This document shows, in pieces, positions 18,587-23,909 of a DNA stretch of 64,000 bases (positions within the stretch are counted from its first letter, which is position 1; every line of letters starts with the position of its first letter). A program made the position numbers and the translations under genes. Source of the stretch: Bacillota bacterium (GTDB taxonomy: Bacteria > Bacillota > Sulfobacillia > Sulfobacillales > Sulfobacillaceae); NCBI GenBank assembly GCA_021841025.1, contig JAKBWA010000003.1:1-64000 (forward strand). Direction: 5' to 3'. A model generated the notes under the pieces. That model was not told the origin of the DNA. It saw only the letters and a list, made by a program, of their open reading frames with translations, and did not search any database.

Positions 18587-18850
18587 GTGGCCGCTAAGAG
18601 CATTCTCGAGGATATAAAAAAAGAACTCGAATCCCACGTCGGAGAGAAAATTCGACTGAAAGCCAATAAAGGCCGAAAAAAGGTTGACGAAAAAGAGGGG
18701 ATTTTGGAAAAAACTTATCCCCACATTTTTGTTGTGAAAATTGAAGAAGAACATCTTTCCGAAAGAAGTGAACGTCGTGTATCGTATTCTTACACAGACG
18801 TGCTGACTGAAACGGTTGAGCTTATCCTTCCTGAATCTCTGTCGAATTAG
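18587..18850 (+). CDS. veg: Veg family protein
   Basis: SILEDIKKELESHVGEKIRLKANKGRKKVDEKEGILEKTYPHIFVVKIE. Confidence 0.93.
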   Translation: MAAKSILEDIKKELESHVGEKIRLKANKGRKKVDEKEGILEKTYPHIFVVKIEEEHLSERSERRVSYSYTDVLTETVELILPESLSN

Positions 18851-18908
18851 CGTATGGTAGAGAAAATTGCCTGAGCCCGTATAAAAGGGTTGGAGTCCGA
18901 ACACACTG

Positions 18909-18938
18909 AGAACGCCATAAGGCGTTCTTTTTCTTTTG
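18909..18938 (+). terminator. Rho-independent terminator after veg
   Basis: AGAACGCC-ATAA-GGCGTTCT followed by T-rich tract. Confidence 0.85.
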
Positions 18939-18986
18939 TCTGGCATGATTTCAGTCGATAGCCATTAAGGACAGGAGGCCATAGCC

Positions 18987-19832
18987 ATAGGACCGCTTCT
19001 GATTATTGGCGGGAAAGAAGACAAAATCCATACCCCCGATATTCTTCGGCAATTAGTGCACTATATCCATATTACGAGCCGTCCAAACCGTATTGGTATC
19101 GTTACAACGGCATCTGTCCAGGAAGATCTCGTATTTGAGACATATCACCAAGCCTTTACCCAGCTCGGCATTGATGACGTTAAATCTCTTGCGATTCAAT
19201 CGCGTCATGAAGCCAACCGTACTTTATGGCTCAATCAGTTGACACAATTGGGTGCACTGTTTTTCGCAGGGGGCAAGCAGCTTCGCATCACAAGCCTTTT
19301 GGGTGGAACCAAGTTTAATCAAGCGCTGGAGCAGGCGTTTCATCGAGGCCTTATTGTGGCCGGCACGTCCGCGGGCGCCGCCATGATGTCTGCGACCATG
19401 ATTGCTGAAGGCGATCCCGAAGACATTCCTACTCGCGAATCCGTCCAATTGGCTTCAGGATTGGGTTTGTGGCCTTATGCGGTAATCGACCAGCATTTTA
19501 CGCAGCGTGGCCGTTTGGGACGCCTTTTGGCTGTCCTGGCCCAAAATCCTGCCGTGTTGGGTGTTGGGATTGACGAGGACACAGCCATTTTTGTTGATGG
19601 TGAACGAGAATGGCTGGAAGTCTGGGGATCTCAGACGGTAAGTCTTTTAGATGGCTGGAGCATCACGGAAACGAATGCGGCTGAAATCCGGCCTAAGGAG
19701 CCGCTGACTCTGATGCATGTCAGTTTGCATGTTTTGTCTAAAGGATATGGATTTCATCTCCCAACAAGGCAACCTATTCGCATCAAGCATCAAGCATCCA
19801 GTATCAAGGAGGAAGCCGTGAATCATGATTGA
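18987..19832 (+). CDS. cphB: Cyanophycinase; apparent ATA start
   Basis: (M)GPLLIIGGKEDK..., catalytic-Ser GTSAGAAMM motif; AGGAGG 8 nt upstream of ATA 18987; in-frame stop at 18966 and no ATG/GTG/TTG before 19056. Confidence 0.87.
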   Translation: MGPLLIIGGKEDKIHTPDILRQLVHYIHITSRPNRIGIVTTASVQEDLVFETYHQAFTQLGIDDVKSLAIQSRHEANRTLWLNQLTQLGALFFAGGKQLRITSLLGGTKFNQALEQAFHRGLIVAGTSAGAAMMSATMIAEGDPEDIPTRESVQLASGLGLWPYAVIDQHFTQRGRLGRLLAVLAQNPAVLGVGIDEDTAIFVDGEREWLEVWGSQTVSLLDGWSITETNAAEIRPKEPLTLMHVSLHVLSKGYGFHLPTRQPIRIKHQASSIKEEAVNHD

Positions 19833-22464
19833 AATACGTTCCAGCCATTTTTATCCCGGACCTAATCGCCATGCCTTTGGCAGCGCCTTGGAAGCTGAGG
19901 TCTACTTGGGCACTTATCAACACATCCATACCGGAGAACGACCGGATATGCAAAAGGTCCTCTTGGAGGCATTTCCCAATCTCAGCCAACACGTGTGTTC
20001 TTTGGGGCATCCCGGTGGTTTCTTAAAACGGTTGCAAGAAGGCACCTATTTGGGACATGTCATTGAACATGTTGCCTTAGAATTGTTGCACTTGTCGGGA
20101 GAGAATGGTCACTACGGCAAGACGCGGGAGATTTCTGGAACCGAAGCGGTTCTGATTGTGTTCGAAAGTGACAGCAGAATTGGAGGGGAAACAGCTCTTG
20201 GTGCTGCTGTGAAATGGGTTGAGGCACTGGCGAAGGATCAAAAACTGACACATGAGGATCCATGGCGTCAAGAGATTCTCCATACGATTCGCGCTCAGCA
20301 TTTAGGCCCTTCAACCCGCGCCATCATTGAAGCGGCACAGGCCCTGGATATTCCTCACTGGCGTATAACGGATGGGAGTTTGGTGCGCCTTGGCCAAGGG
20401 ATTCACCAAAAACGCATTTGGGCCGCTACGACAGACGAAACATCTGTTGTAGCGGCAGATATCTGCCAAGACAAAGTTCTGACGAAACATTATCTGATGC
20501 AACAGGGAATTGCCGTGCCTAAAAGCCGAACAGTCAATTCAGCTGATGAGGCTCTGGCTGCTGCCCAAGAATTCGGGTTTCCCGTGGTCATCAAGCCCCA
20601 AAATGGCCGTCAGGGAGAAGGCGTCACGGTTTATGTCGATACCCCCGGCAAGCTATGGCGCGCCTTCGAGTGGGCCTGGGAATACCGGGGCGATGAAGGG
20701 ATTATGGTCGAGGAGCAGATTGAAGGCAATTCCTACCGCGTTCTGGTGATCGGAGACAAAGTGGCCGCAGCGAGTCTCAAGATGCCGCCTTTTATCATCG
20801 GTGACGGGATACACACCATCGACCAGTTAATTGAGAAGGAAAATCGCAATCCTAAAAGGGGATTGCACCACAGCTTGCCGCTTAGTCCAATCAAACGGGA
20901 TCCCGCTCTAATTATGGCTTTAGAACGTCAACAGCAAGAACTTAACACCATTGCCCCGAAGGGGGAAATAATTCGGCTTCGGGACAGCGCGAATTTGTCA
21001 TGCGGAGGGGAAGCTCAGGATGTCAGTGATGAAATTTCTCCTGATCTCGCCTTTGATATGGTGCGCGTAGCCAAGCTCATCGGTCTCGATGTTGCCGGCA
21101 TTGATATCGTCACCCCTTCATTGAGCCAATCTTTGAAAGAGGCCCATGGAGCCGTGATTGAAGTTAATGCGGCCCCGGGGTTACGCATGCATATCTTTCC
21201 CTCAAAAGGGCAGTCAAGACCCGTAGGTGAGATGATTGTCAAGAAATTGTTTCCGGGGAATCAGGGACGAATCCCGGTCTGCGGGATTACGGGAACCAAT
21301 GGGAAGACAACCGTAAGCCGGATGTTGGCCCATATTTGGCGAGAAACGGGACGATGTGTGGGAATGACCTCGACCGACGGAATTCGGATCGGGGAGCGTT
21401 TGGTTGAAGAAGGGGATTTGACCGGCCCTTGGGCCGCTCAAGTGGTTCTCGGGGATCCCAGTGTGGAAGTCGCCATTTTGGAAACCGCGCGCGGAGGAAT
21501 GGCTCGCTACGGTTTAGGTTTTTCAGATCTTGACGTGGCGGTCGTCACGAATATTGGGTTCGACCATCTCGGGCAGGACGGCATCAATACGTTAGACGAG
21601 CTAACTCACCTCAAGGCCCTGCTTGTCGATGTGGTGCGAGCACAAGGCGTGTGTGTCCTCAATGCGGACGATCCCTATGTGATGTCAATGGCCAAACGCA
21701 CAAACAGTCATATTATCTGGTTTACCACGCAGCAAGATCCACACCGTTCCTTTGTCCAGGAAGAATTGGCAAAAGGCCGGGCTTTTGTGGTTTTGCAACG
21801 CGGATATATCACCTATCAAGACCAAGATACCACTCGCAGAATCATTGGCGCCAAAGCCTTGCCTGCGAGTTGGCATGGCCGGGCGGACATTAATATCAAG
21901 AATGCCATGGCCTCTGCAGCTGCTGCCATAGCCATGGGACTGGATCCAGCTTTTGTGGGAAAAAGTTTGGGACGTTTCACTCTGGGTAACCAAGCTAATC
22001 CGGGGCGATTAGAGATGATCCAGAGCGATCAGGTGGATGTGTTGATTGATTATGCGCATAATGCTCCGGCTATTCAGGCCCTGGGGCATATTGTCTCTCA
22101 ACTAGGGTATTCCCATGTCCGGATGGTGTTAGGGCTGCCCGGGGATCGCAGGAACCAGGATTTGATTCATTCGATTCAGCAAGCCCTGACATTCGCGGAT
22201 GATTTTGTCATCCGGGAGGATAGCGATCCAAGAGGCCGCATGCCGGGGGAAATGGCGAGATTGATTGAGCAAACCTTACGTCAGGAAGGTGTTGACGCCC
22301 AAGCCATACAGATTATTCTGGAAGAGTCCGAGGCCGTGGCTCAGGCGATTGCCACAGCTCCTGAGTCTTCGTTGGTTGTGGTGTTGTTTGAAAGCTATTC
22401 TGCCGTCAAAAATGCGGTCGAAAAGACGTTACACAACCGCAAGAAACAGGTTTTGATATCCTAA
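19825..22464 (+). CDS. cphA: Cyanophycin synthetase
   Basis: ATP-grasp domain followed by Mur-ligase-like VCGITGTNGKTTVSRM; MIEIRSSHFYPGPNRHAFG N-terminus. Confidence 0.95.
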   Translation: MIEIRSSHFYPGPNRHAFGSALEAEVYLGTYQHIHTGERPDMQKVLLEAFPNLSQHVCSLGHPGGFLKRLQEGTYLGHVIEHVALELLHLSGENGHYGKTREISGTEAVLIVFESDSRIGGETALGAAVKWVEALAKDQKLTHEDPWRQEILHTIRAQHLGPSTRAIIEAAQALDIPHWRITDGSLVRLGQGIHQKRIWAATTDETSVVAADICQDKVLTKHYLMQQGIAVPKSRTVNSADEALAAAQEFGFPVVIKPQNGRQGEGVTVYVDTPGKLWRAFEWAWEYRGDEGIMVEEQIEGNSYRVLVIGDKVAAASLKMPPFIIGDGIHTIDQLIEKENRNPKRGLHHSLPLSPIKRDPALIMALERQQQELNTIAPKGEIIRLRDSANLSCGGEAQDVSDEISPDLAFDMVRVAKLIGLDVAGIDIVTPSLSQSLKEAHGAVIEVNAAPGLRMHIFPSKGQSRPVGEMIVKKLFPGNQGRIPVCGITGTNGKTTVSRMLAHIWRETGRCVGMTSTDGIRIGERLVEEGDLTGPWAAQVVLGDPSVEVAILETARGGMARYGLGFSDLDVAVVTNIGFDHLGQDGINTLDELTHLKALLVDVVRAQGVCVLNADDPYVMSMAKRTNSHIIWFTTQQDPHRSFVQEELAKGRAFVVLQRGYITYQDQDTTRRIIGAKALPASWHGRADINIKNAMASAAAAIAMGLDPAFVGKSLGRFTLGNQANPGRLEMIQSDQVDVLIDYAHNAPAIQALGHIVSQLGYSHVRMVLGLPGDRRNQDLIHSIQQALTFADDFVIREDSDPRGRMPGEMARLIEQTLRQEGVDAQAIQIILEESEAVAQAIATAPESSLVVVLFESYSAVKNAVEKTLHNRKKQVLIS

Positions 22465-23000
22465 GCCGATGACCGCCTTGAAGGAATTCACCCCAGTATT
22501 CACAAGCCAAGCCATCCGGATTAGGAAGGTGTGCCCAAACCAGCCATTTTTTGAACTTTTGGTTTTCTTCTTCCTCGAGAGTCGCAAGAGGAACGTATTC
22601 CAAGGGTACGCTCCATGGCTCTGGCTGCGTGAACCTAATACCAATTCGTGCATTGGGGTGGAATTATGGAGCGAATCCCATCAGCACACCCCCTTTAGCT
22701 TGGTGCCGCTTTGGTGATAAGATAAGTCAGGGTTGCGGGCAAGGGAAGTTTCAACATTCTGGGAGTCATGGGGTACCATTTCGGGGCAAAGAAGACGAAA
22801 AGGGCGGCATTTTCGGCAAAGGATGCACACAGCTTACCCGAGAATGGCTATTGCCATGACACTGGGGTATTGCATCTTTGCGGAAGATGGTGTGTACAGC
22901 AATCATTCCTGGGGATGTTTCATGATAAGAGTTGGGACCAGGGGCCCATTTTCCCAGCTGCCCAATGTCCCGGCGCAATGACCAGGAGCTAGAATTTTTT

Positions 23001-23909
23001 TTGAGAGATTTCGGGAAGCGGGGATTTAGTACGCAATCAACACAATGGCAGTTGAGTGCCTATGCCAAGGTCAACTTGGGATTATGGGTGGCGCCTCGCG
23101 ATAACCGGGGTTATCATCCGGTGTGGAGTGTTATGCAATCGATTAGCATGGCTGATGTGATTCGGGTTACCCCATCATCCCATTACCATGTGGAGATGAA
23201 TGTGCCGCTTGAACAACGCCAATTTGTGCCCTCTTTAGCAAACAATCTCATCACCAGGGCTTATCATGGGCTCAAAGACCAATATCCTGAAATCCCTACA
23301 GTAAAAATCCAGGTGAATAAGCATATTCCCATTGGGTCCGGTTTAGGAGGCGGAAGCGCAGACGCTGCGGCCATACTCCGATGGGCTCAAATGGTTATAA
23401 ATAAAAAAATTGATCCAAAATTTGCGGCCAATTTGGGCGTCGACGTGCCGTTTTTGATATCTGGGGGAACCGCTCAAGCCACCGGCTATGGAGAGGATCT
23501 GAAGTACTTGCACCCCTTGCGGGGATGGTATGTGGTGTTAGTCAGCCCTAATTTTGGTCTGTCAACCCGTCATGTTTATAACGCGTTTGATACCTTGCCT
23601 AATTCGAGCCATCTGTCTATAGAGTCCATGCAAGATGTTATCAGACGACTTGAACTAGGCTCGTCTCCCATCAGCCTCTTTAATGCGCTGGAACCAGCAG
23701 CGTGGAAGGTTGAGCCCAAACTAAAAAATTTGAAAGCTGATTTGCGCAGTGTCAGTCGCAAGCCGTGGTTTCTTACGGGGAGTGGGGCGACCTATTTTAC
23801 CCTCTTGCGTTCCTATGAGGAATCTCTTGCTCTACAAAAAGATTTAGTAAATCGCAAGATGGACAATGTGGCTGGCATCGACATTGCAGAGTTTGTAGGA
23901 CCTTTCTAG
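23001..23909 (+). CDS. ispE: 4-diphosphocytidyl-2-C-methyl-D-erythritol kinase
   Basis: SAYAKVNLGLWV, IPIGSGLGGGSADAAAILR GHMP motif; start uncertain (TTG 23001). Confidence 0.93.
   Translation: MRDFGKRGFSTQSTQWQLSAYAKVNLGLWVAPRDNRGYHPVWSVMQSISMADVIRVTPSSHYHVEMNVPLEQRQFVPSLANNLITRAYHGLKDQYPEIPTVKIQVNKHIPIGSGLGGGSADAAAILRWAQMVINKKIDPKFAANLGVDVPFLISGGTAQATGYGEDLKYLHPLRGWYVVLVSPNFGLSTRHVYNAFDTLPNSSHLSIESMQDVIRRLELGSSPISLFNALEPAAWKVEPKLKNLKADLRSVSRKPWFLTGSGATYFTLLRSYEESLALQKDLVNRKMDNVAGIDIAEFVGPF

Follow-up and report, generated by a model that had tools for sequence, protein, structure and literature searches.

Only a handful of bacterial genes, namely infC, pcnB, sigR, ccpN, and cvfC1, are known to retain a non-canonical start codon on purpose. 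Among these, infC is the textbook gene starting at AUH (AUA, AUC, or AUU), while pcnB codes for poly(A) polymerase. Discrimination by IF3 is escaped only by start codons ending in G (PMC4611024). In Staphylococcus aureus, AUU and AUA starts with strong Shine-Dalgarno sequences (SDs) gave about 10% of the AUG level, and ccpN reached up to 30% of the AUG level in rich medium (PMC13009471). The Streptomyces sigR gene has a conserved GTC start and an extensive conserved SD and is repressed by IF3, an arrangement that helps the product of the second gene to exceed that of the first (PMC5472188). A preliminary description of the cphB locus treated here had proposed a start at AUA and called natural AUA initiation rarely documented, which is right, though such initiation was experimentally shown for infC, ccpN, and citZ of S. 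aureus (PMC13009471). For Sulfobacillus, our literature search returned nothing on start codons or on cyanophycin that bears on the start of cphB.

The window, i.e., the whole stretch of 64,000 nucleotides that was analyzed (contig 8 of genome G000), carries cphB and cphA on the same strand with overlapping ends, and a 136-nt leader separates cphB from an upstream gene that we take to be Veg-like (Table 1). The pair cphBA lies directly after this gene and shortly before an ispE-like gene at 22932 (window 18587-23909); in Bacillus subtilis, the forespore gene sspF sits between veg and ispE. The frame opened at ATA 18987 translates to IGPLLIIGGKEDK..., and the preliminary description was exact to the base in finding no in-frame ATG, GTG, or TTG between TAA 18966-18968 and GTG 19056, while its spacing of 8 nt between AGGAGG and the ATA was confirmed by direct reading. 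A second in-frame ATA (18981-18983) follows the SD by only 2 nt, too close for normal initiation. The two in-frame ATAs, 2 and 8 nt past the SD, belong to a tandem GCCATA GCCATA (window 18978-18989). The leader also holds a 7-codon upstream open reading frame (ATG 18945 to TAA 18966) without an obvious SD.

Table 1. Positions of the features of the cphB locus within the window
Feature	Position	Strand	Basis or remark
cphB, predicted cyanophycinase, read from ATA 18987	18987..19832	+	281 aa + stop; TIGR02069; AlphaFold2 model
Proposed start codon AUA	18987..18989	+	AUH in 28/31 family orthologues, never AUG; onset of coding constraint
Shine-Dalgarno AGGAGG, 8 nt before ATA	18973..18978	+	Read directly; anti-SD duplex -10.3 kcal/mol
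In-frame stop TAA closing the frame upstream of ATA 18987	18966..18968	+	
GTG, first downstream canonical codon; rejected alternative start	19056..19058	+	Codon 24 counted from ATA
Putative forespore-type promoter: -35 GTATA (18879-18883), 18 nt, -10 CACACTG (18902-18908)	18879..18908	+	Sequence pattern only
GC-rich hairpin (18908-18929) with T-rich tail, between promoter-like motif and SD	18908..18938	+	Scan
Upstream gene, presumably Veg-like by sequence, 87 aa	18587..18850	+	ORF; conserved in G003 and G005
cphA, cyanophycin synthetase, starting at ATG within the end of cphB; SD AAGGAGG 19806-19812	19825..22464	+	TIGR02068, 1007 bits

The product of cphB is a predicted full-length cyanophycinase (TIGR02069, peptidase S51). 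Read from the ATA, the protein matched TIGR02069 with 263.8 bits (cut-off 126.6, E 1.4e-78) over profile positions 1-248 of 250, and the alignment starts within its first few residues. The nucleophile elbow GTSAG (residues 126-130) is invariant and aligns with AGTSAGA of the Synechocystis enzyme (3en0). The AlphaFold2 model (pLDDT 84.5) had its best PDB matches in 7uqv, 7uqw, and 3en0 (TM 0.81-0.92); the best of them, 7uqv, carries the name 'pseudo-CphB', and the partner gene is a cyanophycin synthetase by TIGR02068. In the model, strand 1 of the cyanophycinase fold corresponds to residues 4-7 and a helix to residues 18-29.

Orthologues were searched in 34 genomes of the family of the source lineage (Sulfobacillaceae), and cphB was found in 31 of them; all loci were oriented before codons were compared. 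The alignment at the start codon that had been proposed as a check gave ATC in 22, ATA in three, and ATT in three genomes as the codon before GPL(L/V)IIGG, and ATG in none of these 28 (of 31) orthologues. In G011, the AUH codon stands one codon further upstream than in other family orthologues, and three genomes (genera g7 and g10) have ATG-GCA/GGA-AAA in place of AUH. Every AUH in the family orthologues is preceded by a strong SD. An ATG two codons before AUH is absent in 24/28 and present in 4/28: in G003 and G004, it follows AGGAGG by only 2 nt, too close for normal use, while the well-spaced upstream ATG of g4 may be the real start there. Altogether, an ATG is found close before the start position in 7/31 orthologues and is a plausible start in g4, g7, and g10, so the weak start is not indispensable. 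In 12 of the 24 orthologues without the upstream ATG, the window included, no canonical start occurs between the upstream stop and AUH, and in two of these 12 the upstream stop is a TAG that overlaps the SD.

The pattern of substitutions changes abruptly at the same codon. Summed over ten close pairs, codons 2-13 showed 38 synonymous and two non-synonymous differences, as opposed to five synonymous and 43 non-synonymous differences in the eight codons upstream of AUH, which indicates that protein-level selection switches on at the AUH codon. Gly2, Pro3, and Leu4 are invariant in 28/28 orthologues although their codons vary. At the third base of AUH, at least four changes among C, A, and T were inferred, never to G; for the Gly codon that follows, the corresponding number is at least ten, and its third base is G in 5/28. 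This contrast is suggestive, not conclusive, of selection against AUG at the start codon, resting as it does on only four inferred third-base changes. Taken together, the lack of another usable start, the coding boundary, and the conservation of AUH support a start at AUA 18987 well: translation very probably initiates there, and the proposal made from the single sequence holds as the best reading, with AUH in 28/31 orthologues and the coding boundary at this codon.

Alternative positions for the start fare poorly against these data. GTG 19056 is the first in-frame canonical codon and the choice of automatic gene callers, and a start there would leave an N-terminally shortened CphB. As already noted in the preliminary description, this would cost the conserved N-terminal strand (strand 1 in the model), together with the IIGG-EDK segment and its invariant GG-E-K; the part lost is under strong protein-level selection, and among relatives the first downstream canonical codon varies in position (2 to 25 codons after Gly2) and does not stand behind the conserved SD, so that we regard such a start as highly improbable. 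It is also very improbable that the relatives start at an upstream TTG or GTG and that the window has merely lost it. In the other 12 of the 24 orthologues, a TTG or GTG does precede AUH by roughly 18-105 nt, but the 12 lacking such a codon are spread over several genera, the upstream codons show no protein-level constraint, and the SDs at these codons are mostly poor or misplaced, with the strong SD usually lying downstream of them. The suggestion of a sequencing error or a recent start-codon mutation, to which the state of the window's assembly (118 contigs) might lend some weight, was rejected: ATC or ATT is found in most of the genus and the family, including genomes with chromosome-length contigs (G003, G004, G005, and G011), and ATA recurs at the start position in G002, the nearest relative (79% identical, apparently contig JAKACM010000030.1). 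An error or an ATG mutation confined to the window's strain is therefore refuted by the orthologues and has next to no probability.

A different question is whether a genuine AUH start carries any regulatory meaning. An ancestral start could have been lost and a near-cognate codon rescued by the strong SD, persisting as little CphB is needed; the strong SD would compensate for the weak codon, the third base has wandered between C, A, and T, and an ATG is close by in some genera, all of which would fit. Against this, a single point mutation would give AUG (from ATA, a transition), and yet AUG is absent at the codon in 28 much-diverged sequences, while the third base of the neighboring Gly codon changed at least ten times, G included. 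We consider this explanation unlikely, and a role of the AUH start as a regulatory brake on cphB likely.

Other genes of the same genomes served for comparison. In the genome of the window, infC opens with ATT, and most relatives have either ATT or ATC; the codon follows an SD of the GGAGG type. Automatic callers will therefore misplace the infC start too. Such infC starts occur in most family genomes and in much of the class (L052-L081; L056 corresponds to contig 102 of G000). The start of cphA is ATG, GTG, or TTG in every genome where it could be placed (all but G006 and G023). Pairing of the SD with the anti-SD was stronger for the AUH-start cphB genes (median -11.2 kcal/mol) than for 469 other genes (-9.8 kcal/mol), for which the best nearby start was chosen, in those genes' favor; the Mann-Whitney p of 0.0006 overstates the difference, as the 24 sequences are kin. 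A census of further AUH starts was run as a sample of approximately 400 kb each of G003, G005, and G011 plus the window. Once overlaps had been removed, it covered 755 ORFs with homologues, of which 52 lay in the window and 212-279 in each relative; some of them are rRNA-region artefacts. Only cphB paired a strong SD and AUH with an N-terminus that is conserved in three genomes and lies upstream of any canonical codon, and no further gene of this type was detected in these stretches of the three relatives and the window, in a census that misses AUH genes with a canonical codon nearby by chance. In much of the family, the CphB start will be wrongly placed by gene callers limited to ATG, GTG, and TTG, and more AUH-start genes can be found by checking where the coding boundary lies relative to the first canonical codon.

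In the CphB tree, the family forms one group (support 91/83), within which g9 branches deepest and has AUH. Four changes on this tree account for the labels AUH, ATG+AUH, and ATG, as compared with a mean of 18 for shuffles. The simplest history is one old gain of the AUH start and one later switch to ATG only. Outside the family, a canonical codon was found within 15 codons in 66/67 readable orthologues of the phylum, typically about 10 codons before IIGG, so the CphB N-terminus is shorter in the family. Two orthologues from outside the family, L153 (G439) and L047 (G053), have ATT or ATA where their relatives have ATG or GTG, which hints at near-cognate starts of independent origin; each case was seen once, in a draft genome.

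The leader carries a second conserved element. In 31/31 family leaders, G(T/C)ATA is followed 17-18 nt on by a box nAnnnT(A/G), resembling the consensus of the forespore sigma factors F and G (-10 CATNNTA). The motif scored 10.3 on average, versus 9.3 for shuffles (maximum 9.7), with -10 boxes that deviate from CATNNTA. A sigma G gene is present, and SASP genes of the genus show G-N-N-T-A and CATACTA at similar spacing. A sigma-70 promoter scan gave no match. Occurrence of the motif in all 31 leaders suggests forespore transcription of cphBA, a lead and not a result. In Clostridium perfringens, cyanophycin was linked to spore assembly (Liu et al. 2016, as cited in PMC5532821). Between the motif and the SD, most genera have a GC-rich hairpin with a T-rich tail, which nearly abuts the SD in g6 and may be either the terminator of the upstream gene or a 5' hairpin of the cphB mRNA; the leader fold has an energy of -37.6 kcal/mol (z -2.8). 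When the 7 kb surrounding the gene were searched against Rfam, no match was obtained up to E 0.1, so no known riboswitch explains the leader.

We propose that ribosomes begin cphB at AUA 18987, positioned by the strong SD 8 nt upstream, and that the codon would be read by the initiator fMet-tRNA, as for infC. As AUH pairs imperfectly with the initiator anticodon and IF3 discriminates against it, the translation of cphB would reach only a fraction of that from AUG, and with cphA following in the same likely operon under a canonical start, CphB would be scarce relative to CphA. Its level would then depend on IF3 and the growth state, and the low CphB:CphA ratio would prevent cyanophycin from being made and broken down in a futile cycle. 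For this account as a whole, i.e., an old, weak AUH start that keeps CphB low in relation to CphA, probably via IF3, we estimate a probability of roughly 0.7. Such control might perhaps act during sporulation, in the forespore. In a bolder version, which we think rather improbable, the AUH start would be a developmental control, with the activity or availability of IF3 in the forespore setting the output of cyanophycinase from the message that cphB shares with cphA; cyanophycin would then be laid down in sporulation and degraded only when the stringency of initiation changes, e.g., at germination.

Compared with the known systems, cphB resembles infC in that its AUH start, preceded by a strong SD, has been retained through long stretches of evolution, the same arrangement being found for infC in the family genomes; however, the infC product discriminates against its own start and is thereby autoregulated, whereas CphB is a metabolic enzyme without such a loop. 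With Streptomyces sigR it shares the leading place in a unit of two genes whose products oppose each other, a conserved non-canonical start, and an extensive SD, but the sigR codon is GUC and not AUH, its unit encodes a sigma and an anti-sigma factor instead of two enzymes, and repression by IF3 was shown for sigR while we infer it for cphB (PMC5472188). The Staphylococcus genes ccpN (AUA) and cvfC1 (AUU) also belong to the Bacillota and have conserved AUH codons with strong SDs, and their reporters were weaker than those with AUG; they encode a regulator and a small protein in another lineage, and their starts were proved by Ribo-Ret and reporters, unlike that of cphB, which comes from sequence comparison (PMC13009471). 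In Escherichia coli, pcnB offers the case of a near-cognate AUU start that limits the level of an enzyme (Binns and Masters 2002, as cited in PMC13009471), in a different host and with a different enzyme. Conserved non-canonical starts as such are already known, and cphB is unusual in being family-wide and an enzyme gene: it would bring a metabolic enzyme into this short list, and do so throughout a family of spore-formers, and the throttled gene would be the first of a make-and-break enzyme pair.
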